Source: Candidatus Hydrogenedentota bacterium
GTDB taxonomy: Bacteria > Hydrogenedentota > Hydrogenedentia > Hydrogenedentales > SLHB01
Length of the DNA stretch: 64,000 bases
NCBI GenBank assembly: GCA_029552745.1
Contig: JAKPDK010000042.1
Coordinates: 186,001-250,000, forward strand
Direction: 5' to 3'
Both the position numbers and the translations under genes were made by a program. The notes under the pieces are model-generated. The model worked only from the letters and a program-made list of their open reading frames with translations. It ran no database searches and was not told where the DNA came from. Shown here piece by piece: positions 235-56,282 of this stretch (within the stretch, counting starts at the first letter, position 1; every line of letters begins with the position of its first letter).

Positions 235-1698
235 ATGCGCTTGGATTTCAGCCGCGCCCGTACTCTCCTTCAAAACCACGGGTTCACGAAAACCGAAATC
301 GAACACTGGATCGCTCTTTACCACCGCGCCACATTTGCTCACCTCGTCTTCACAGATCGCAATGGAAAGCCTTGGCAACTCCGCCCTTATCAAAAAGACT
401 CCTTCGAGTCCTACGCCCTGCGAAAAGTACACTGTGACGGCAGAGACGTCGGTAAAACCACAGAAATAGAGCTCATCGCCGCGTGGGCATCGGTCGCCTT
501 GCCTGATTCCGAAATGCTCGTCGCAACACAATGCGAAAACCATCTTTACCCTTTAATGGACCGCATCTGCCGACGCATCCAAACCACCTCCGCACTGGCC
601 GGCAATCTTGTCGAACTGCACCGGTCCCCATCGTGGCACATGCGATTCCGAAATGGATTCGTTTTATGGGGACGTATCGCGGGACCACGCGGTATCAATT
701 TTCAGGGACTCCACGTGGACTGGCAAATCATCGACGAAGCCCAAGAAATGACCGAAACGGCATGGGGCGAACTTTACCAAGCCCTCAACGCCGGCGGCAA
801 GCGCTGGGTGTACGGCGTTCCCAACGGACTACGTAACACCTTCTACCGAATGACACAAATTGCCGACGCCGAACAATATAACTGGCCTTCAACCCTTCAT
901 CCCGATTTCACATCGGAAAAAGAAGAAGAACTTGCCCTCCTCTATGGCGGAAAAGACTCCCCGGGATACATCCACCGTGTTCTGGGACAACACGGTGCCC
1001 CGGCGCACGCTGTGTTCGACCTCGAAGATTACTTGGCTTGCGTTCAAGATTCCCTCGAGTTCTGCGAGATCTGCCTCGACGCAAACGACCACGCACTTGA
1101 CGTGCCCAATCCACCGCAAGGCGTCTACTACCTCGGATGCGACCTCGGTTACGCCCGCGACCCTTCTGAATTCGTCATCTACCGACTCGACGGCACCGAC
1201 TTGATTAATACGGCACACATCCACCTGGCAGCCGTCCCCTACCCCCGACAACAAGAGGTCATCCTGGAACTAGACCGCGCCTACAACTTCCACGCTATCG
1301 GAATAGACAACGGCAACAGCGGCCGGGCTGTCGCCCACGCACTCATGGGACTCGGCAGCGATTGGTGCGAAAAGGTGTTTCCCATCGATTTCGGCGGAAA
1401 CATCACGGTTGAGACGCTCCCCGATGGACGCCCGGACCGCCGCCCCGCGAAACAGTTCATGACCGAACTACTCACCCGCCGTATGGCGGAACGAACCATC
1501 ACGTTTCCTCGCTACCCACGACGCGAAACCCAATATGCCGCCCATACCTACTCCGTCACTTCCAACGGAAGAATCCTCTATGACAAAGGCGACGACCATA
1601 TTATCGACGCAGATCGGTGCGCCCTTCTCGCCCACTACCTTGACACCCACCGCGACCACTACCCCGTCACCCTGCGCCTGCGCCTCGAAAGTTTCTGA
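235..1698 (+). CDS. Phage-type terminase large subunit (DNA-packaging ATPase/nuclease)
   Basis: This 487-aa protein has the two-domain layout of tailed-phage large terminases, which translocate DNA into a procapsid and cut it. The N-terminal ATPase has a Walker A-type GRDVGKTT (about residues 69-76) and a Walker B IIDEAQ with Asp167-Glu168. The C-terminal RNase H-like nuclease has three acidic clusters: CDLGYARDPSEF (Asp303), GIDNGNSGRA (Asp358) and DDHIIDADRC (Asp458). All motifs are intact and the length is normal. No strong Shine-Dalgarno precedes ATG 235. It is the only packaging gene seen and is followed by a host-type gene, while the head and tail genes lie at 47.4-56.3 kb on the other strand. 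It may therefore serve those proteins as a dispersed system, or belong to another prophage left of the window. Confidence 0.88.
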   Translation: MRLDFSRARTLLQNHGFTKTEIEHWIALYHRATFAHLVFTDRNGKPWQLRPYQKDSFESYALRKVHCDGRDVGKTTEIELIAAWASVALPDSEMLVATQCENHLYPLMDRICRRIQTTSALAGNLVELHRSPSWHMRFRNGFVLWGRIAGPRGINFQGLHVDWQIIDEAQEMTETAWGELYQALNAGGKRWVYGVPNGLRNTFYRMTQIADAEQYNWPSTLHPDFTSEKEEELALLYGGKDSPGYIHRVLGQHGAPAHAVFDLEDYLACVQDSLEFCEICLDANDHALDVPNPPQGVYYLGCDLGYARDPSEFVIYRLDGTDLINTAHIHLAAVPYPRQQEVILELDRAYNFHAIGIDNGNSGRAVAHALMGLGSDWCEKVFPIDFGGNITVETLPDGRPDRRPAKQFMTELLTRRMAERTITFPRYPRRETQYAAHTYSVTSNGRILYDKGDDHIIDADRCALLAHYLDTHRDHYPVTLRLRLESF

Positions 1699-11722: not shown

Positions 11723-12583
11723 ATGGGCTTGTGGGATTGGTTCAGGGGGAATCGCGGCAAAGGGGTGGACGAATTAGCCCAACGATTAGGCATGACGGCA
11801 AATGATTTGAAGCGCATCCCAATTTCCTATAAGGAATTCAAAATTCCGAAACGCCGGGGTGGGGTGCGGGCGATTGCGGCTCCGTCAGTGGAGCTAAAAA
11901 AGATTCAACGAGTTATTCTCCGTCGTGTGTTAGGACGGTTATCAGCGCACCCAGCCGCTATGGGCTTTGAACGAGGACGCTCCATTGTATCTCATGCCCA
12001 GCGGCATGCAGGGAAACGCGTTGTGGTGTCGATGGACATTAAGGATTTTTTCACAAGTACCTCCGCCAACCGGGTGCAGAAATACTTTCGAATCATAGGG
12101 TGGAACCGAGAGGCAGCAGACCTTTTGACCCAGTTTTGTACTTATAACGGTGCGTTACCGCAAGGTGCACCGACCAGTCCCAAGTTGAGCAATTTGGTGA
12201 ACTATAGACTCGATGCGCGTTTGGCAGCATTGGCAGAACGTCACGGAGCCTGTTATTCGCGGTATGCGGACGATCTGACGTTCTCATTTGAGAATGATTC
12301 CAGACAAGAGATTCATGTACTCATCCGCGCGGTGAAGCTTATTCTCCAGGACGAGGGATATTCGCTCCACCTGCGAAAAAAATTGCGGATTCGACGCAGG
12401 TACCAACGGCAATTGGTCACGGGCCTTGTGGTGAACGATCGGCCCCAATTGCCCAGGACAGTCCGGCGATATTTGCGCGCGGTGGAACATGCGTTATCAC
12501 AGGGCAAGCCCGCGACGTTATCGCCTCAGCAATGGGAAGGGTGGCGAGCGTTTCGTGCCATGGTGGAAACGCCGCAGCGTTGA
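11723..12583 (+). CDS. Retron-type reverse transcriptase
   Basis: A 286-aa single-domain reverse transcriptase. Motifs in order: IPKRRGGVRAIAAP near residue 45, GFERGRSI, the retron-type HAQRH (variant of NAxxH), SMDIKDFF with the first catalytic Asp, LPQGAPTSPKLSN, SRYADDLTFS with Tyr181-Ala-Asp183-Asp184, and LVTGLVVN, the VTG motif typical of retron RTs in domain X/7. QGAPTSP argues against a diversity-generating RT, which carries a Q near the end of that motif, and no maturase or endonuclease domain follows. ATG 11723 is preceded by GGAGAAGG. It is transcribed behind the structured leader. A ribokinase gene starts 41 nt downstream; no classical retron effector is evident. Confidence 0.88.
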   Translation: MGLWDWFRGNRGKGVDELAQRLGMTANDLKRIPISYKEFKIPKRRGGVRAIAAPSVELKKIQRVILRRVLGRLSAHPAAMGFERGRSIVSHAQRHAGKRVVVSMDIKDFFTSTSANRVQKYFRIIGWNREAADLLTQFCTYNGALPQGAPTSPKLSNLVNYRLDARLAALAERHGACYSRYADDLTFSFENDSRQEIHVLIRAVKLILQDEGYSLHLRKKLRIRRRYQRQLVTGLVVNDRPQLPRTVRRYLRAVEHALSQGKPATLSPQQWEGWRAFRAMVETPQR

Positions 12584-47425: not shown

Positions 47426-47833
47426 TTACCGGAAGGTTGATAGCGTTTGCCAGCCAGCATCGGAGTTGGACTTTGCCCGATTGACCAGGCGAGTAAGCCA
47501 CAGGTCGATGAAGGGTTCGCCCAGCACGCGCAGGACGTCGACGCCGGCCAGTTTTCCTAACGCGATAGCGCGTTCGCGCGCCATTTGGCGGGCGTTTCGT
47601 CGTTCGTCTTCTGTGAGTTTGCCGTCGGCGCGGGCGGCTTTAATGGCTTGTACGTAGGTGCGATAGGTTTCTTCGATAGCGGCTTCGAGGATTTCGAGCG
47701 CGCGTTGCAACCGTTGGTCTTGAAGGTGTGCAAACCATTTTCCGGTTTTGGCAAGCGCCCAGATGGCGGCGGCGAATGCGCCGACAAGAGTCAAGCCCTG
47801 ATCGCTATTGACGAAGTCGGTAAAGGTCATCAT
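47426..47833 (-). CDS. Holin candidate (LLH-holin-like)
   Basis: A 135-aa protein with one N-terminal membrane helix (about residues 12-32, GLTLVGAFAAAIWALAKTGK) followed by a long charged helical region and LAGVDVLRVLGEPFIDLWLTRLV near the end. The single N-terminal helix, helical charged body and the place directly after an endolysin gene fit LLH-type phage holins, which open the membrane for the lysin. GGAGAG precedes ATG 47833; a second ATG follows immediately. Last gene of the virion operon, 8 nt after the endolysin gene. Confidence 0.55.
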   Translation of the reverse strand: MMTFTDFVNSDQGLTLVGAFAAAIWALAKTGKWFAHLQDQRLQRALEILEAAIEETYRTYVQAIKAARADGKLTEDERRNARQMARERAIALGKLAGVDVLRVLGEPFIDLWLTRLVNRAKSNSDAGWQTLSTFR

Positions 47834-47841
47834 GTTCTCTC

Positions 47842-48336
47842 CTATCGGGCACGTTCGCGGTTGTCGGCGTGCACGTGCCCATCTTTGTAGTTGTCTTTCA
47901 CATAGTCAAAGTATTTTCGGCACACAGCGCCCAGTGTGGATTGGGGGACATGGGCGCGGTCGGCGGCGCTGACAGCGACGATGTCCACCGCAATACCGCC
48001 GTATTCGACGAGGTGTTTCGAGTCACGTGCCACGAAGCCTCCTTCATCGGTCCAGCCGTACCGCAGTGCGAGACGTTGCAGGTCGGCATGGGTACGGACG
48101 GCGTCGGTAATGATCACCCAGACTTCTTCGCCTGCCATGGCACAGAGTTCGCGGCGAACGCGTTCGAGCGATTCTAAGGTGCTGCGATGCACCATGGCGA
48201 GTCCGTCGGGGTTTTCGAATTCGCGTAAGCGAAAGTTGGCACAGGGTGCGCCGTCTACATCTATGAGCAGACGGACATTGTTTCTGTCCTTAGAGAAACG
48301 TGCGCGCATCGATGATGTATCCATTGGTGTTGTCAT
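47842..48336 (-). CDS. M15-family peptidase, probable endolysin
   Basis: A 164-aa protein ending in a D-Ala-D-Ala peptidase M15 domain. Zinc ligands are visible as SKHLVEYGGIAVDIV (His, then Asp seven residues later) and DGHVHADNR (His-x-His) near the C-terminus, with TDAVRTHADLQRLA preceding, a typical M15 core order. Phage M15 enzymes cut peptidoglycan peptide bridges for lysis. No signal peptide, consistent with holin-dependent release. The start is not firm: ATG 48336 overlaps the upstream gene by 47 nt and has AAGAGG directly adjacent; ATG 48324 and 48309 are alternatives. Confidence 0.75.
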   Translation of the reverse strand: MTTPMDTSSMRARFSKDRNNVRLLIDVDGAPCANFRLREFENPDGLAMVHRSTLESLERVRRELCAMAGEEVWVIITDAVRTHADLQRLALRYGWTDEGGFVARDSKHLVEYGGIAVDIVAVSAADRAHVPQSTLGAVCRKYFDYVKDNYKDGHVHADNRERAR

Positions 48337-48811
48337 CCTCTTGTTGAATGGTGTTCATTCCGGGGCGCAAATACAGGTGAGCCAGGGGAATGGCGTCGGC
48401 ATCCGGACTCGGCGGCGTAGGAGCGACGGCTTCTGAACCGGTTTTCACCGAAACGTCCCACGTGCTCAAGCAAGCTTGCACCAGGTCTATTCGTGCATGC
48501 TGTTGAGGTGGGATGATGACCGGCGTTGTGACGGGGGAAGCCAGGCGAAACGGCGTGTGCGAAATAAATGCCCATCCCGGTGCCACCCGCACCGCGAGAG
48601 TTGGCGGGTCGGTCGCCTGTACGGCCAAATCGTCGGGGGTTGCGCCGCGCAGGACGCCGTCGCCTCCACCCCATGCCAGGCTCAACACATGAAGAAGGGT
48701 TTCGAAGGCAGCCTCGATCCGGTCGTCCCATAGGTTTAATTTTGCGGAAGCTACGGGACGTTCCTGAAATGCCCAGCTGGTCTTGGTATAGGTTTTGCCT
48801 TTGATAGCCAT
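48290..48811 (-). CDS. Virion protein of unknown role, possibly tail appendage
   Basis: A 173-aa protein. Residues ~5-45 (SWAFQERPVASAKLNLWDDRIEAAFETLLHVL) are helical, and ~55-160 is beta-rich (LAVRVAPGWAFISHTPFRLASP, RIDLVQACLSTWDVSVKTGSE, IPLAHLYLRPG). The latter resembles the small beta domains found in tail-fibre or baseplate appendage proteins that report a list of value-type strands. No catalytic motif. AGGAG is 8 nt before ATG 48811. It sits between the tail hub and endolysin genes. Confidence 0.6.
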   Translation of the reverse strand: MAIKGKTYTKTSWAFQERPVASAKLNLWDDRIEAAFETLLHVLSLAWGGGDGVLRGATPDDLAVQATDPPTLAVRVAPGWAFISHTPFRLASPVTTPVIIPPQQHARIDLVQACLSTWDVSVKTGSEAVAPTPPSPDADAIPLAHLYLRPGMNTIQQEDDNTNGYIIDARTFL

Positions 48812-48837: not shown

Positions 48838-50577
48838 CTAGTCGAGATGAAATCCGAGATCCGTGCCCACGCCGTCATCGTCCAGCCGAAACTGGTAGAG
48901 AACGGTTGGTCCGGGTTGTCCGCGGACTATAAAGGTGAGCGGAGATTCGACAGAACGTAACGGCGAAGTGAATTGGACTTCGGTGGAAACATGTTGCCCT
49001 GCGATCTCATAACGGATTGAAGCCGCGCGGCCAACCACGCGGTCTGCGAAGCGGTCCGCCCATTCGCCGCTGATTCGGCGGATATATCGTCTTACCCGTT
49101 CGCCCCGCAGCTCGACGATGTCGCCTACGCGGAGTTGCGAGTTTCCGTGCGGAAAGAACAAATGACCGCGGGCGCTCGGATAGGCGATGTCATTGAGTAA
49201 ACCAGCCACGAGGGCATCGGCATCTTCGAGGCGGGACAACGCGTAATATTCGAGGCGTGCGGCACGGGCACCGTATTCCGCGATACTACCGGTCTGATCG
49301 TAGGTTTTTTGGAAAGCGCCCTCAATCGGGTTGCCAAGGAAAACGATTCGGTTCACCAAATCGGAGTCTTCTAAGCCCAAAGCGGCGTCGAGGTTGCCCT
49401 CATCTACGTAAAACACGTGGTTGGGTATGTCGGCGGAACGAAAAGAGACAGTCCCTTCAGATGAAATAGACCAGACGTAGCCGCCAGCGGCATAGGCGAG
49501 CGCCGTGAGCGATTCCAAGAGCCCGGCTTTCAAATCCACGTGGCGTAGATAGCCAGGCACGGGTTGAATCGTGTCAGTGGACAAGGCGCGGTAAGAAAAG
49601 AAATCCTTCAGTTCCAGTTCAGGTACCAGATAGCGTCCTGAATCATAGAGATAGACGTCCGCGTGTCCCAGTTCCACCATTGCCGCGTTGAAACACATCC
49701 CGCCGCCGTAGACAAGGGCAAGATATCGCCCGTAAGCATCTACACGGTCGTCAAACGCCCCGGATATGTCCCGATGTGGGTTTAGTTCGATGGCTTCGAT
49801 TCCATACGTCGTCAAGAGAGACTGTAGGGCGGCATGTGCGTTGTCGGCACGCCTCTTGTAAGCGCTGGTGAGATATTGCGCCTCGGTCCACGCAGCGACT
49901 TCCGGGTGTCGTTTGATGGCGTGGGCGTTGCGTGTGGTTTCTTCGGTATCAATGAGCATGAGACGAATGTCGGGCCAGGGCGTGCCGTCTACGACTAGAC
50001 CGGAAATGGTGTCTCCGTCCTTTGCGAACGCGCCCGTGAGGTCGATGCGGTTGGCGCCGACCCATTGTCCGTGCTCAATGCCGCCAATTTGAAGTTCGTT
50101 GTCCGGCCGTTTTCGCGAAATAAACTTGCGGTATTCACGGACTGCTCCCTCGGGAAACGCCGTATGGTCTATGCCGTAGTGCACGGGACCGAGCGTTCGA
50201 TTCACGGCATCCCGAACGATATGGTCGATAGATTGGTTCATGTAAGCCCGCGTTACCGCACCGTCGAATGTACCGGCATGACGTTCCGCAACGACCTCAG
50301 TGAAAAAGCGAAACGGCACATACCGTCCAAACACGAGGCGCTCAGTGTCTTCCCAATGGGGAATGACCGACAGCACGGAACCTTCGCAGATCAGGTCTTC
50401 TTCCAGATAGAAACGCACACAGTAAGCCGGGCTGATATCGTAGTTTGTCCCTTCGAGTAGAATCGCCATGCGGTCGGTCTTGTCCGGCGTACGGCAAATG
50501 ACCTCGATAAATGGGGCGTCTGTGATTTGATGGATACGACGGTTACCCGTATCAAGAATTTCGATCAGATAGTGCAT
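48838..50577 (-). CDS. Tail/baseplate hub protein with embedded staphylococcal-nuclease domain
   Basis: A 579-aa protein with an unusual fusion. The N-terminal ~165 residues (HYLIEILDTGNRRIHQI...) and residues ~330-579 (VNRIVFLGNPI, QLRVGDIVELRGERVRRYIRRI) look like a gp27/XkdQ-type tail hub. Between them (about 180-320) is a complete SNase/thermonuclease domain: DGDT with Asp189, IRLMLIDTEE with Arg205, Asp210 and Glu213, and DAYGRYLALVY with Arg284, matching Asp21, Arg35, Asp40, Glu43 and Arg87 of staphylococcal nuclease. All metal and catalytic positions are kept; the Arg205-Arg284 spacing is ~27 longer. ATG 50577 is chosen because a longer frame would overlap the distal tail gene. It could cut nucleic acid at the tail tip during delivery. 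Confidence 0.8.
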   Translation of the reverse strand: MHYLIEILDTGNRRIHQITDAPFIEVICRTPDKTDRMAILLEGTNYDISPAYCVRFYLEEDLICEGSVLSVIPHWEDTERLVFGRYVPFRFFTEVVAERHAGTFDGAVTRAYMNQSIDHIVRDAVNRTLGPVHYGIDHTAFPEGAVREYRKFISRKRPDNELQIGGIEHGQWVGANRIDLTGAFAKDGDTISGLVVDGTPWPDIRLMLIDTEETTRNAHAIKRHPEVAAWTEAQYLTSAYKRRADNAHAALQSLLTTYGIEAIELNPHRDISGAFDDRVDAYGRYLALVYGGGMCFNAAMVELGHADVYLYDSGRYLVPELELKDFFSYRALSTDTIQPVPGYLRHVDLKAGLLESLTALAYAAGGYVWSISSEGTVSFRSADIPNHVFYVDEGNLDAALGLEDSDLVNRIVFLGNPIEGAFQKTYDQTGSIAEYGARAARLEYYALSRLEDADALVAGLLNDIAYPSARGHLFFPHGNSQLRVGDIVELRGERVRRYIRRISGEWADRFADRVVGRAASIRYEIAGQHVSTEVQFTSPLRSVESPLTFIVRGQPGPTVLYQFRLDDDGVGTDLGFHLD

Positions 50578-50603
50578 GCAACACGTCCCTGTGCGTTTCA
50601 GTT

Positions 50604-51290
50604 TTACCACCAGCGATGGTGATAGGAAATAACTGCTTCGCCTACCGGATTCGTGGAAGATTCGTCGGAGTAGGTCCACACGGTTTCAGGTGAGACGATG
50701 CGCGGAAATTTGCCAACTACATAAGGCGTAACGTCGGTGGTATTAAGGATCACCTTCCCTTGAGATGCATCCAAACATAACGTAGCACCGGGAGATACCG
50801 TACCCGGAAAAACGATTCGTCGTTCGCCATCGCTGAATGAGGGGGCGACAAGTGAAGCGGCGGCGGTCAAGACGATGGTTGGCAGCGCGGGAGCGGAACC
50901 AATCGTGGAGAGGGCGAATGTCGCGCCGGATGAGGCAATTGCCCAGATTTGCTGTTCTATCGCGATGGATTCTTCCGTGAGGTCGCGCGACTCGAGAAGT
51001 AGTTCGAACGCGCCAAAACCGATCTCCATCCCCACGCGCCGCGTTCCCGCACAGCAGCGCACCCAGAGACGTCTTCCCTCGCGCAGAGACAGTTCGTTGT
51101 CGTAGGTGGTATGCGAGGCGGCATAATAGATAGCGTCCAAGACTTGCTCGACTTCTTCGACAGTGGGCTTGTCAGCAATGATCCCGCTTAACGTGATGCG
51201 GCGCCGGTTTCTGCCGCCGATTTCTTCGATCTGGTCTTTTATCTGTATTGTTGCCGGGTCAAAGCGATAATCATTGAGTTTGATCACCAT
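50604..51290 (-). CDS. Distal tail (Dit-like) protein
   Basis: A 228-aa protein. The N-terminal half (VIKLNDYRFDPATIQIKDQ... RRRITLSGIIA) resembles the tail-tube-like fold of distal tail proteins. The C-terminal half (ALPTIVLTAAAS, GTVSPGATLCLDASQGKVIL, VVGKFPRIVSPETVW) follows the galectin-like half with its GxxLxxDxxxxxV and FPxLxPG-type pattern. Dit connects the tail end to the hub. ATG 51290 is taken as start, overlapping the upstream stop by 20 nt; GTG 51332 is an alternative without a ribosome site. It directly precedes the hub gene, as in siphophages. Confidence 0.6.
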   Translation of the reverse strand: MVIKLNDYRFDPATIQIKDQIEEIGGRNRRRITLSGIIADKPTVEEVEQVLDAIYYAASHTTYDNELSLREGRRLWVRCCAGTRRVGMEIGFGAFELLLESRDLTEESIAIEQQIWAIASSGATFALSTIGSAPALPTIVLTAAASLVAPSFSDGERRIVFPGTVSPGATLCLDASQGKVILNTTDVTPYVVGKFPRIVSPETVWTYSDESSTNPVGEAVISYHHRWW

Positions 51291-51708
51291 AGGCTCTGTG
51301 TCCCCAAATGTCGTGGGAATTGGTGACGGCACTTACTTGTCTTGGCGGCACGGCTGTAAGGTACGGTTCCAACACATACCACCCGCTCTTTTCTGCCAAC
51401 GATGCGGCAGCGAGCAGTGCGCGAAACCGGTCGCCGGCTTCAATGCGGTTTGCCCCAATCGTTAACCGACGTTGACTTACCGCGTCAGCATATGCCAGTG
51501 ACCTTAAGACCTGAGCCCCCGCCAGGAGGGTTTCCCCCATGACAAGGGCATCAGGAAGCGGGTCCGTGTCCACGTCTGGATCGAGATAGCGAAGGAGTTC
51601 GGTGTGGGTGTCATGGATCGCGTTTTCAATGAGCGAAGGGGACACCGTCACGACATCGTGAAATTGAAATTTGGCGCGTACCCGCGTTTCGTTCGTAAAG
51701 GGGTTCAT
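51271..51708 (-). CDS. Putative head-tail connector protein
   Basis: A 145-aa mostly helical protein (PSLIENAIHDTHTELLRYLD, LPDALVMGETLLAGAQVLRSLAYADAV) with a beta-like C-terminal third. Size, helicity and place between the major capsid gene and the distal tail gene fit gp6/DUF1320-type head completion proteins, but there is no diagnostic motif. Its stop overlaps the next gene by 20 nt. GGAG lies 11 nt before ATG 51708. Confidence 0.5.
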   Translation of the reverse strand: MNPFTNETRVRAKFQFHDVVTVSPSLIENAIHDTHTELLRYLDPDVDTDPLPDALVMGETLLAGAQVLRSLAYADAVSQRRLTIGANRIEAGDRFRALLAAASLAEKSGWYVLEPYLTAVPPRQVSAVTNSHDIWGHRAYGDQTQ

Positions 51709-51768: not shown

Positions 51769-52818
51769 TTACGTCCAATCGCTTTGGACCACTACTCGGG
51801 CTTTTTCGTAAATGACGGCAAAGTCCGTCACGACGGTGAGGTACGTGCGGTCCCATTGCTGTTGAATGAGCTTGTCGCTTTCGACGAGCAGGTCTTGTTC
51901 CGTCAGTTTTTGAACGGCATATCCGGCGTCAAGGATCGTAAGCTTATGTTCTGGCTGGTCGGGCATGGGGATAAGCCGAACTCCCAATGGGGTGGGCAGG
52001 TTGCCGGTCTTGGCAAAGTCAAACAAGGCGGCATCGCGGAACTCATCCAACGACAAAATGGTGCGGCAGAGCGCCCCGCTTGCGAGCATGTGCGTGGGTG
52101 TAAAATAATGTTCCAGGGTTAGTTTCATGAACCCCGCCACAATGTCCTCATAACTCCAACTTCCTGCGGCAGCGGTGTTCAGGGTCAGAGCCGCCGTAGC
52201 GGCGCCTGAAGAGTCGCCGTACACGAGAACGTGGGCAAGTCGAGCGTCGAGGTTACGTCCGAGGCGTTCGCCCATGCGTTGCAAATGCACGCGCAACATG
52301 TCGATGGACATTCGCCGGATCGCCTCGTAGGAGGCAATCACGCCGCGTCCTTTCTTGTCAATGCGCACGATGCGGTCACCGTACGTAATTTCCGATTCGG
52401 GAATGGCGGCGCCTTCTGCAACACTGTGCAATTCTTCCTCGGAAGCGGCCTCTTGCACATACGGGACGTCGTACGCCGTACCGTCCACGGCCTCGTCGCG
52501 AATGATCAATTGCGGGTAAACCGGTTTTCGGCGCATGCCTTGCAGGACGGATTCGCGAACGATGTCGGGGAAAAGCCATTTGGCATTGGGATCCGATTGA
52601 AAAAATCGGTCGACGGTGATACGGTCGAGGTCAATGCCGAACTCCTGGGCACAGTAGTCCTGAACATTGGTACCCAGAGCACGGAAATACTGATGGTAGG
52701 ATATACCGAGCGTGCCTAACTGCTCGTATAGCTCGCGGCCGCGGGTTTGCCGCAACCTTTCTGGGTCTTGCGAAAGGAAAGCGGCACGCTCCCGCAAGCG
52801 GTCATCACGATATACCAT
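51769..52818 (-). CDS. Major capsid protein (HK97 fold)
   Basis: A 349-aa protein. After a helical N-arm (RLRERAAFLSQDPERLRQTRG) comes the pattern of HK97-like capsids. There is an extended E-loop region around YDVPYVQEAASEEELHSVAEGAAIPESEI, a long spine-helix candidate RRMSIDMLRVHLQRMGERLGRNLDARLAHVLVYG, and a P/A-domain with PTHMLASGALCRTILSLDEF and a YLTVVTDFAVIYEKARVVV C-terminal strand pair. It forms the shell of the particle. AGGAG is ~11 nt before ATG 52818. It lies just downstream of the DUF2190 gene. Confidence 0.78.
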   Translation of the reverse strand: MVYRDDRLRERAAFLSQDPERLRQTRGRELYEQLGTLGISYHQYFRALGTNVQDYCAQEFGIDLDRITVDRFFQSDPNAKWLFPDIVRESVLQGMRRKPVYPQLIIRDEAVDGTAYDVPYVQEAASEEELHSVAEGAAIPESEITYGDRIVRIDKKGRGVIASYEAIRRMSIDMLRVHLQRMGERLGRNLDARLAHVLVYGDSSGAATAALTLNTAAAGSWSYEDIVAGFMKLTLEHYFTPTHMLASGALCRTILSLDEFRDAALFDFAKTGNLPTPLGVRLIPMPDQPEHKLTILDAGYAVQKLTEQDLLVESDKLIQQQWDRTYLTVVTDFAVIYEKARVVVQSDWT

Positions 52819-52853: not shown

Positions 52854-53234
52854 TTACAAAAGTACATGCACAACGGATTGCACGGTATCGGTTTTCAAAA
52901 CGATGCCGGAACCGTCCCCGGATTGAGGCGCTTTCACTTTGCCCGTATCACTACTTGCGGTGATTCCCGTTTTGCCGTCAATCGTGGGCGCGCTACCGGT
53001 GTATGCAAAAACGCAAATGCCGCGCACCTTCACTGGAAGAGCCACGTTGTTTCCAGATGCAGCGGCCATGGCTTGTCCTAGCACAGGACTCTCTACCGCT
53101 GCCGTATTGGTCACGACGTAAGGGCCTACAAGGGAAACGGCATCCCCTTTTTCAATGTGCACCGTGCCGGAAGAAGGGGTACGGCAGGTCAAGATTAATT
53201 CGGTAATGGTTCCGCCAACATCACCAAAAGCCAT
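52854..53234 (-). CDS. DUF2190 capsid decoration/stabilising protein
   Basis: A 126-aa beta-rich protein. GTVHIEKGDAVSLVGPYVVTN, followed by VLGQAMAAASGNNVALPVKVRGICVFAYTG, is the typical DUF2190 pattern (gain of a stable trimeric beta-barrel that cements HK97-type shells). Many Gly, Ala and Thr, no enzyme motif. AAGGAG lies 10 nt before ATG 53234. It immediately precedes the major capsid gene. Confidence 0.8.
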   Translation of the reverse strand: MAFGDVGGTITELILTCRTPSSGTVHIEKGDAVSLVGPYVVTNTAAVESPVLGQAMAAASGNNVALPVKVRGICVFAYTGSAPTIDGKTGITASSDTGKVKAPQSGDGSGIVLKTDTVQSVVHVLL

Positions 53235-53330: not shown

Positions 53331-54038
53331 TTACTCCTCTGTGGAACGAAGGATATTCAGTCCTCGCTCCAAATGCGCGCCCTCTTCACTTGACACGAGC
53401 GTTTCGGGTATAGCCACCGGCGCGGGTGGGTACGCAAGGTCAAAGCGCACCTCAAACAGCCGCAAGAGGTCATGAATTTCGTCCAGTGTCAGGTTTTGGA
53501 GTGACTTGCGCCAGACGGCTTCATCAAAAGCCGTGCCATCCAACTCTTTGCCCAGTCCACAGAGCCGTGCCACAGCCCGTTGACGCGCGGTGACGCCGTC
53601 GGCAATGAGGCGCGCCGCTTCTCGTTCATTGACTTGGGTTTCCTGTAAGACAGCGCAAATGGCGCGCGCTATCTCCGGGGCAATGCCGCGGACGCGCTCG
53701 AATCGCACGAGACGGTCTTCCTGGCGACCCCGCAAGAGGACCGTGCGCGAGTCTTCTGTCCGCTCTATCCAGTGATACAACCCGGCGTCTTCTCGTATGG
53801 CGTGCCCGTCTTGATCTAGCCAATGCAAGGGATGGGGCATTTTCTCGGTTGCCCAAGGTTCCCCGGCAAAGACTTCTCCGGCAACTCGCCACCCCAGCAG
53901 GACGTCGCCGCACTCCAATCGTAAATCGAGGTGAGTGCCCTCTTCGTCGTTATGCCGATGAAGAACAAACCGTCCGTCTGGACATTGCTGTGCCTGCGCA
54001 CCGGTGTTATCAGGCAAGAGAATAGTCTTCCAGTACAT
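53331..54038 (-). CDS. LigD-type 3'-phosphoesterase-like protein in the virion operon
   Basis: A 235-aa protein. Residues ~20-115 match the LigD 3'-phosphoesterase domain, which removes 3'-phosphates and ribonucleotides from DNA ends. FVLHRHNDEEGTHLDLRLE has His29, His36, Asp38, Arg40 and Glu42 in place of the family's KHxxxxLHYDxRLE, followed by GDVLLGWRV and MPHPLHW with His69 where the family has EDHPL. The loop between His29 and His36 is two residues longer. The C-terminal half is helical (ARAICAVLQETQVNEREAARLI, LTLDEIHDLLRLFEVRFDL) and unrecognised. AGGAGG is 5 nt before ATG 54038. It may process DNA ends during packaging or delivery. Confidence 0.7.
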   Translation of the reverse strand: MYWKTILLPDNTGAQAQQCPDGRFVLHRHNDEEGTHLDLRLECGDVLLGWRVAGEVFAGEPWATEKMPHPLHWLDQDGHAIREDAGLYHWIERTEDSRTVLLRGRQEDRLVRFERVRGIAPEIARAICAVLQETQVNEREAARLIADGVTARQRAVARLCGLGKELDGTAFDEAVWRKSLQNLTLDEIHDLLRLFEVRFDLAYPPAPVAIPETLVSSEEGAHLERGLNILRSTEE

Positions 54039-54048
54039 GCGCCTCCTC

Positions 54049-54270
54049 CTAACGTAGCAATTGTTGTGTCAATGAGCCTGCAACGCCGATGAGATTGGCG
54101 ATGAGCAAGAGCACGCCGCGCGCGAGTACCGTTTCGAGTCGACGTACCCGTTCTCGAAGGTCTTCGAGGTTTTCTTCCAATTTTTGAAATTGGACGTCAT
54201 ACGCCATTTCATAAGGACAAGGGTTACATGCAGCAGCGGCTATTTCCTTTTTCCCACTGGACCGTTTCAT
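54049..54270 (-). CDS. Small XhlA-like membrane protein
   Basis: A 73-aa protein: a coiled-coil stretch (QFQKLEENLEDLRERVRRLETVL) followed by one C-terminal membrane helix (GVLLLIANLIGVAGSLTQQLL). This is the layout of XhlA-type accessory holins. A CNPCPY motif precedes the coil. GGAGGAAAG lies before ATG 54270. It is placed in the head-gene part of the operon instead of beside the endolysin, so a different membrane or particle role is possible. Confidence 0.65.
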   Translation of the reverse strand: MKRSSGKKEIAAAACNPCPYEMAYDVQFQKLEENLEDLRERVRRLETVLARGVLLLIANLIGVAGSLTQQLLR

Positions 54271-54289: not shown

Positions 54290-54979
54290 TCATTCCCTTG
54301 CCCACGTACGGGAAGTATGAAGTTCTATCGGGCGGTGATAGAGGGAACGGGCGGATTCGAGCGCATCAGGGAAGGAAGACGATCTGCCACCGGCGACAAA
54401 ACCTGTCCCTTGTGAGCCGGACGCAACAACAGAACCTTCGATAACTTCCAAGACGTTCCGCATGATGGAGTGACACAACACGTCGCCGTAGGTTCTGCCT
54501 GGGACGTGGTCACAGGTGCGAAGGTCGCGTCCGCAAACACTGCATTCGGGTGTCTGGAACGCAAATCCTATTGAAGTCTCTCGATAGACGCCGCCTTCGA
54601 TGTTCAGAATGAAAGAGGCATTGTCGGGCGTCCGCAAAACGTATACATCAGGGCGCACACTCGTGCGGTCGTCGTCACGGTGCAAGCGTGAGCGGAAAAA
54701 GGTGCCGCGAGGCAACGATCCGCGGAGGTCGTGACGTTCCATCAACGGCCTGCCTACCACGAGGCGGTTGATGGTCTCTAATTCTTCATCCGGAAAACGG
54801 CTGAAATGTCGATCGATCTGGTTGTGGCATAGGTCGAGCGTAAACACGGCGAACTCTTCGGATTTTAGGGGACGTAGGGCAAACTGATTCACCTCGTCCG
54901 CGGCGGACGAGTCTGTTGGGTGAACCCGCAGTCCGACAATACTCCCTTCTCTTCGGAAAAAGAACGGTTGCAGTTCCAT
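54290..54979 (-). CDS. Head maturation protease-like protein
   Basis: A 229-aa protein. The pattern LCHNQIDRHFSRFPDEELETIN, GRPLMERHDLRGSLPRGTFF, YRETSIGFAFQTPECSVCGRDLRTCDH and VLEVIEGSVVASGSQGTG follows head-maturation proteases whose catalytic His (in ERHD) and Ser (in TSIGF) lie far apart, and that carry a CxxC...CxH metal-like cluster. It would cleave scaffold and capsid delta regions. Located between portal and capsid genes, as usual. AAGGAG is 10 nt before ATG 54979. Catalytic assignment is inferred. Confidence 0.65.
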   Translation of the reverse strand: MELQPFFFRREGSIVGLRVHPTDSSAADEVNQFALRPLKSEEFAVFTLDLCHNQIDRHFSRFPDEELETINRLVVGRPLMERHDLRGSLPRGTFFRSRLHRDDDRTSVRPDVYVLRTPDNASFILNIEGGVYRETSIGFAFQTPECSVCGRDLRTCDHVPGRTYGDVLCHSIMRNVLEVIEGSVVASGSQGTGFVAGGRSSSFPDALESARSLYHRPIELHTSRTWARE

Positions 54980-55022: not shown

Positions 55023-56282
55023 TCAGGTATGGGGCGGTAGATCGATATTCAGCCGTTTTGCCGCCATTTCATGGTCAATAAATCCCTCTTTTTCCAGACG
55101 AATTGCATTTTCGATTTCTTTTCCGCGTGCCGTAGCTTCTTTGAGCGGGTCGACGGTGCGGTTATGACGCATACGGACATGGGCGCGCGCCTCCCCCCAC
55201 ATCAAAGACAACTCGAAGTTGTAGAGTCGTTCGAGCAGTCGTTTGACACTGCGGTTAACGGCTTCGACTTGGCGGTTGATGATTTCGAATTGTGCGGTAC
55301 CGTAAGTCTCCGTTGTGCCGTAGTTCCTGCCAACGAGGATAGGCATGAGATGCATACCCGTGATGATCTGCTCTTCGATTGCTTTGTGGTTTTCATAGAA
55401 GACTACTGACCGCTGGTCTCCCCGAATCAATTCCACGGCAATGTTGTCATAGGTGATCAAATTTTGGTCGGCTTCGAGCCCGCTCAAGCGGTCCCGAAGG
55501 TCCTGAAAATTGCGTTCCACCCTTTCCTGATAGCTTTCGGGCGACTCCCCGCGTTCCCGGGGTTCCGGCGTGTAACGGACGTGTAGTTTTGCCCATCCCA
55601 CATTTCGCATGGCTTTTGCCATGTCCTCAATAAGACGCTGCTGAATCTTGACCACAAACGGGATGGAGCGCAGCATCGACCTGCCATACGGATTGGTACC
55701 GTCTCTGTCGAGACCGACGTAAAGAAAGAGCTTCGACGGGAGTCGGATTTCTTTGCCGTCGTAAACCTGATACGGTTGAAGGGTTTGTTTTTCGCGGCGA
55801 AACCGGACGGTCCACACATCCACGGGGACTACGTCAAAGATGGCAGACCGATCGCGGTTGAGTACGATTTCTAGAGCGGCGGCGCCATACGTGAATAGGG
55901 AGGTGTAAAAGATATCGAGTAACCCTTCCATGCCGCGGTCGCCTGAATTGACCCGTCGGTCTAAATCGGCAATGAGTCGCTCGGCACGACGCCTTGCAGA
56001 TTCGGAAGAGGGTGCAAGAACTTCCACGTCATAACCCGTTTGGCACAGCCGTTTCCATGTCCACACGGCATCTGAAATGTCAGGAATGGCGTCACGGAGG
56101 AATCGGTATACCTGAAGCATCTCAAAGGGAGTGCCGTTCGGTAACCCGATGAAGGTGCCCGAGACTAGCCGTGAGAAATCTTCGGGGAGACTCGCCGTTC
56201 GGAACGATAATACGCGCGGGGAAGATCGGTGAGAGAGGGTAGGGGATTTTGAAGAGAAAAGGCGACGTAACCAACCGGACAT
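55023..56282 (-). CDS. Phage portal protein
   Basis: A 419-aa protein. Typical portal features: SDAVWTWKRLCQTGYDVEV near residue 75, GLLDIFYTSLFTYGAAALEIV, the wing region, a long stem helix, ITGMHLMPILVGRNYGTTETYGTAQFEIINRQVEAVNRSVKRLLERL, and the C-terminal helix. The portal forms the dodecameric ring through which the terminase packs DNA. Closest in style to DUF935/Mu gp29-type portals, though exact family is uncertain. GGGAG is 6 nt before ATG 56282. First gene of the virion operon, 66 nt after the LarA-like gene; no promoter is obvious between them. Confidence 0.78.
   Translation of the reverse strand: MSGWLRRLFSSKSPTLSHRSSPRVLSFRTASLPEDFSRLVSGTFIGLPNGTPFEMLQVYRFLRDAIPDISDAVWTWKRLCQTGYDVEVLAPSSESARRRAERLIADLDRRVNSGDRGMEGLLDIFYTSLFTYGAAALEIVLNRDRSAIFDVVPVDVWTVRFRREKQTLQPYQVYDGKEIRLPSKLFLYVGLDRDGTNPYGRSMLRSIPFVVKIQQRLIEDMAKAMRNVGWAKLHVRYTPEPRERGESPESYQERVERNFQDLRDRLSGLEADQNLITYDNIAVELIRGDQRSVVFYENHKAIEEQIITGMHLMPILVGRNYGTTETYGTAQFEIINRQVEAVNRSVKRLLERLYNFELSLMWGEARAHVRMRHNRTVDPLKEATARGKEIENAIRLEKEGFIDHEMAAKRLNIDLPPHT

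Follow-up and report, generated by a model that had tools for sequence, protein, structure and literature searches.

The 3'-phosphoesterase (PE) domain of bacterial LigD and the stand-alone archaeal PE proteins (PF13298; 3n9b, 3p43, 3p4h, 5dmp) are the described systems closest to the protein that we analyze here. The latter shares with them its fold, its metal ligands, and Arg40, His69, Glu42 and Trp50. It differs in being fused to a tail of phage-protease type instead of a ligase or polymerase, in having no Ku at its side, in lacking several residues and a loop that are characteristic of LigD (see below), and in scoring beneath the Pfam and NCBIfam cut-offs. LigD-type PE domains are also encoded by three large viral contigs in IMG/VR, none of them joined to a protease tail: in L170 and L171 the domain forms the C-terminal end of a larger protein, and in L172 (315 kb) it stands alone.

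For the second half of the protein, the nearest counterparts are the proteases of phages MT835952 and MT836604 and of the IMG/VR contigs L162 and L163, each of which has a tail homologous to it, with the same portal-protease-capsid order of genes. In the Hydrogenedentota, by contrast, protease and tail are separate, and it is the tail that bears the PE domain; an undivided protease and tail is seen only in one genus (g31). A functional precedent for a scaffold tail is gpO of phage P2, which has an N-terminal protease and a C-terminal internal scaffold (PMC7552001); the likeness that we draw here is one of function.

The locus as a whole invites comparison with RcGTA and other GTAs, which are likewise phage-derived head and tail genes maintained as one chromosomal locus, vertically inherited and under purifying selection. 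Among the flanking genes that we examined, no lysogeny genes were noted beside the Hydrogenedentota locus, and ComEC is encoded in the genome. On the other hand, this locus belongs to a different phylum, uses other capsid and portal families, has PE and SNase domains built in, contains no recognised tape-measure or major tail protein, and, of what packaging and transfer of random host DNA would need, shows the terminase and ComEC genes. GTAs outside the Alphaproteobacteria are hard to recognise (PMC11841831), and the open-licence papers that we searched make no mention of GTAs and Hydrogenedentota together. Nor did we find, in the collections and open-licence papers searched, a PE domain with a protease-scaffold tail in a class-wide inherited particle locus, although an earlier description is possible. 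PE domains and protease-scaffold fusions are already known; what appears to be new is their combination in such a locus.

The gene, its neighbours and its fold

The window, by which we mean the whole stretch of DNA that was analysed, comprises 64,000 nucleotides from Candidatus Hydrogenedentota bacterium (GCA_029552745.1, contig JAKPDK010000042.1). Its relevant features are as follows, in window positions.

235..1698, plus strand: terminase large subunit (phrog_2, 4e-22), on the same contig as the head operon and ~46 kb from it
47426..47833, minus strand: small conserved protein, the operon's last gene; order conserved, weak matches only
47842..48336, minus strand: conserved 164-aa protein, peptidase-like by eye only; order conserved, no Pfam match
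48290..48811, minus strand: conserved tail/baseplate-like protein (phrog_20556, 0.0022); order conserved
48838..50679, minus strand: tail-hub-like protein with an SNase insert (residues 237-344, ~49648-49971; Pfam SNase 1.3e-5), active-site residues intact
50604..51332, minus strand: Dit-like distal tail protein (Pfam SPP1_Dit 2.5e-5, slightly below cut-off)
51271..51708, minus strand: head-tail adaptor-like protein, named mainly by position (its profile matches the post-capsid gene of phage L165, E 3.5e-4)
51769..52818, minus strand: major capsid protein (Pfam Phage_capsid_4 1.2e-15)
52854..53234, minus strand: decoration/virion structural protein (phrog_4588, E 1.8e-7)
53331..54038, minus strand: PE gene, 235 aa, ATG start; LigD-type PE domain followed by a head-protease tail domain
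53331..53690, minus strand: C-terminal helical domain of the PE gene, residues 117-235, homologue of the phage head-maturation protease tail (hhalign)
53691..54038, minus strand: PE domain, residues 1-116; metal site His29/His36/Asp38, phosphate site Arg40/His69 (Z 12.4 to 3p4h)
54049..54270, minus strand: small membrane protein of 73 aa, belonging with PE to one inserted module
54290..54979, minus strand: head-maturation protease, 229 aa, without a tail of its own (phrog_16951, E 1e-35)
55023..56282, minus strand: portal protein, Mu-type (Pfam Portal_Mu 9.6e-9; phrog_3753 1.6e-50)

The protease also matches the 'major head and protease protein' of Flavonifractor phage Cormatin. A preliminary description of this DNA had recorded the open reading frame of the PE gene and six residues in it (His29, His36, Asp38, Arg40, Glu42 and His69), all of which we find where it placed them. 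It had also set the gene between those for the decoration protein and the small membrane protein, which is again correct: the PE gene lies 10 nt downstream of the latter (54049-54270) and ~100 nt upstream of the former. To this we add its strand, minus, which that description did not give.

Single-sequence comparisons with the known families are faint. Pfam LigD_N (PF13298) aligns with residues 26-78 at E 0.0066 (17 bits, against a cut-off of 31.1), TIGR02777 of NCBIfam scores 19.3 where the cut-off is 144, and phmmer pairs the protein with two archaeal PE domains (3p43, 3p4h; E 0.005-0.008); a profile built from 24 family sequences matches the solved PE domains at E 7e-8. The AlphaFold model (pLDDT 90.4) has the helical C-terminal half that the preliminary description had proposed, and its top matches are the solved PE structures, as that description's likeness to LigD would have it. 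Foldseek ranks PE domains first; in VIA, 3p4h is matched with Z 12.4 (rmsd 1.9 A, 97 residues) and all six PE entries give Z 9.0-12.4, compared with Z 5.4 for the best unrelated fold. This match is well beyond chance and confirms a LigD 3'-phosphoesterase fold for residues 1-116.

Elsewhere in the window, a retron/defence-type reverse transcriptase is encoded at 11723-12583 on the plus strand (PADLOC RT_XIII E 7e-86; Pfam RVT_1 7e-22). A defence role for the PE gene was considered and rejected, its own PADLOC match being weak (E 0.0068).

The capsid-protease tail and natural losses of the PE domain

Taken alone, the tail has no fold match in the PDB or BFVD, and the protease profile has no match in the PDB. 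The tail (A2) can nevertheless be aligned by hhalign with the phage protease tail (A4) over 78 columns, with a probability of 91.7% and E 7.6e-7; the controls give at most 3% for nine other operon families and at most 0.6% for 100 column shuffles. Moreover, when a profile of the C-terminal half of PE was searched against all open reading frames of the nearest phages, the best matches were the C-terminal ends of their proteases, which are 300-370 aa long, each with its own helical tail. Gene order in these phages is portal, protease, decoration (where recognised), capsid. By this remote profile match, the head-maturation proteases of related phages end in a homologue of the C-terminal half of the PE gene, which implies that in the Hydrogenedentota element the tail passed from the protease to the PE gene. 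By analogy with P2 gpO, we infer that the tail works as an internal scaffold or docking piece, and its ancestry suggests that the PE enzyme is built into the particle head.

The preliminary description had proposed that the particle or the packaging step includes an enzyme that heals 3' ends. Its 'in the particle' component is strengthened by the capsid-protease ancestry of the tail and by the constant place of a PE-fold protein in a particle-building operon; its other component, healing of 3'-phosphates, fares badly, the phosphatase residues being missing (see below).

Another informative set of observations concerns natural losses. In genus g31, represented by two separate assemblies (G038 and G040), neither the PE domain nor the gene for the membrane protein is present, and protease and tail form one continuous reading frame, the arrangement seen in phages. 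We considered this PE-less state as ancestral and rejected it: in a phage-rooted tree g31 groups with the PE-bearing G032 (support 97), so that the loss is secondary. In G004 and G057 the PE sites are destroyed and the tail is retained. PE activity is thus dispensable in some lineages, namely the two genomes with dead sites and the one genus with the domain deleted. The small membrane-protein gene adjoins PE in most loci and shares its loss in g31. A tail that assembly requires, with PE as its passenger, would be retained in this way when PE is lost; on these comparisons the tail looks to be needed for assembly, with PE a passenger that is probably carried into the procapsid.

A protease with 62% identity and a different C-terminal domain is encoded by L161 (IMGVR_UViG_3300033062_001943), a viral contig whose portal and capsid are unrecognised by the profiles of the Hydrogenedentota element.

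Active site and predicted chemistry

His29, His36, Asp38, Arg40 and His69 correspond to His42, His48, Asp50, Arg52 and His84 of P. aeruginosa LigD (PMC8656161). All five are jointly intact in 51 of the 53 full-length homologues, while overall identity drops to 25-30%, and alignment shows that true LigD proteins from the Hydrogenedentota phylum have retained the same residues. The PE half evolves under purifying selection (dN/dS 0.07-0.47).

Around this core, the family departs from LigD in ways that the preliminary description did not note. In the latter, mutation of Tyr88 inactivates the enzyme; Arg14, Arg15 and Glu21 are required for 3'-phosphatase activity and not for ribonucleoside removal, and Glu82 is also among the residues of the 3'-phosphatase step (PMC8656161). 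In the window's protein, Tyr88 is replaced by Trp73 (Trp in 50/53 homologues), Gln40 by His27, Ser61 by Gly49 and Glu82 by Met67, the last at a position that varies among homologues (mostly A/G/M/L). Alignment with true LigD of the same phylum reveals no counterparts of Arg14, Arg15 or Glu21. The active-site loop is shortened, and the YGxG loop of LigD is missing. Since the phosphatase-step residues are missing and the catalytic Tyr has become Trp, we predict a phosphodiesterase rather than a phosphatase: the activity, if any, is more likely to be metal-dependent phosphodiester cleavage at 3' ends than removal of 3'-phosphates.

The Trp that is nearly universal in the family and the shortened loop could also be taken to mean that the domain is a non-catalytic structural or DNA-binding module, kept for its grip on DNA ends. 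We regard this as unlikely, bearing in mind that the metal ligands persist together with Arg40 and His69 at such low identity, and that the stand-alone PE of the viral contig L172 also has Trp in the place of Tyr88, so that PE enzymes may tolerate it.

The tail hub provides a second point of comparison. SNase enzymes leave 3'-phosphates, and PE might therefore be a healing partner of the hub, converting the ends it makes to 3'-OH for joining or priming. The SNase site is indeed intact in the window and in most hub-bearing genomes; it is defective in G004, G005 and G040, all of which are also PE-defective (G005 by E42A only), an association with a Fisher value of 0.002 or 0.035 according to how G005 is counted, uncorrected for relatedness. 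This joint decay may, however, only reflect decay of the whole element. Furthermore, in 16 genomes (families f10 and f6) PE is intact and a homologue of the hub is missing; candidates for replacement hubs in these families were rejected, those read being unrelated exported SNases or methyltransferase-fused proteins. Conversely, SNase is intact in G038 and G057, where PE is deleted or dead, respectively. Strict coupling of the two enzymes is rejected on these grounds, and what survives of the earlier proposal that PE acts with the SNase hub is the tendency of their active sites to decay together. With Arg14, Arg15, Glu21 and Glu82 of LigD all lacking a counterpart, we hold the healing partnership to be quite improbable.

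Distribution, inheritance and meaning

Loci were found by family profile, and those with a named source are nearly all Hydrogenedentota MAGs, which places the window in that phylum. Our sample of the class comprises 68 genomes (MAGs), of which 55 have a PE homologue and 52 the capsid protein; 12 of the 13 genomes from which PE is absent are without the capsid gene too. PE occurs as a single copy per genome, save for one short LigD side match in G012. Genes for portal, protease, small membrane protein, PE, decoration and capsid succeed one another in a conserved order: PE directly follows the membrane-protein or protease gene in 51/52 loci and is itself followed by the decoration gene in every operon that goes on beyond it, the lone exception (G048) being an artefact of overlapping reading frames. 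Constancy of this kind rules out co-occurrence by chance, a concern raised in the preliminary description. In the split operons of G009 and G021, where the block after PE is elsewhere, PE stays with the portal and protease genes and not with the capsid gene.

Reduced operons are found in L033, L041, L073-L075, L077 and L078 (families f6 and f10): the capsid gene leads to those for the 164-aa protein and the last small protein, either directly or past one small gene, and no Dit or hub homologue was recognised in these loci.

Set against host families, the capsid tree requires 10 changes and the PE tree 9, where the minimum is 9 and the shuffled mean 28-29; the capsid, PE and concatenated trees together give 9-11 changes (minimum 9-10, shuffled mean 28-32). 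Neither close nor profile searches returned relatives of this PE from viral contigs or phage records, and phage records yielded no canonical PE. Given one locus per genome, conserved synteny, trees that follow taxonomy, purifying selection and no close phage with PE, the particle locus behaves as a phage-derived, vertically inherited, GTA-like element of the Hydrogenedentota.

That the locus is a prophage operon, ordinary or in decay, with an accessory gene and not a domesticated particle might be argued from the position of the terminase, whose large subunit is present in 57/68 genomes and mostly not on the head-operon contig; from the decay of some members; and from the standing of GTA-type packaging of host DNA as a candidate function only. 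We find this very hard to reconcile with a single locus per genome across 11 families, evolving under purifying selection with taxonomic trees, with the absence of a close phage relative carrying PE, and with flanks that, in the genes examined on both sides, are host metabolism and transport. The least probable reading by our assessment is the original one, in which ends are healed so that DNA can undergo non-homologous end joining or be integrated in a recipient: in its favour is the likeness of fold to the LigD PE domain, but the window's genome has neither Ku (PF02735; present in 2/40 relatives) nor an ATP-dependent DNA ligase (PF01068), and true LigD, where relatives have it, is a separate gene. 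Such end joining might yet operate in an unrelated recipient.

The explanation that we prefer, with confidence a little better than even, is that a LigD-type PE domain has been joined to the assembly tail of a head protease, within a phage-derived, vertically inherited, GTA-like locus, and is docked through that tail in the procapsid. Fold, conserved metal and phosphate site, synteny, vertical inheritance and tail homology are the parts of this explanation drawn from sequence. In the mechanism that we envisage, the tail would act as internal scaffold or docking piece, as in P2 gpO, and PE would thereby enter the procapsid during assembly; it would stay near the portal or the DNA inside the head, and there may act on the 3' ends of packaged or ejected DNA, with phosphodiester cleavage the likelier chemistry. 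We put forward more tentatively, as possible yet doubtful, that a gene-transfer particle inherited vertically across the phylum carries an end-processing enzyme in its capsid by way of the protease scaffold tail and delivers it with the DNA, whose 3' ends would arrive prepared.

For the Hydrogenedentota, these observations describe a conserved GTA candidate that spans a whole bacterial class. Being fused to the tail of a capsid protease, PE has a predicted location, and the fusion offers a testable case for particles that carry DNA-end enzymes, for which the natural loss of PE in one genus is a built-in control.
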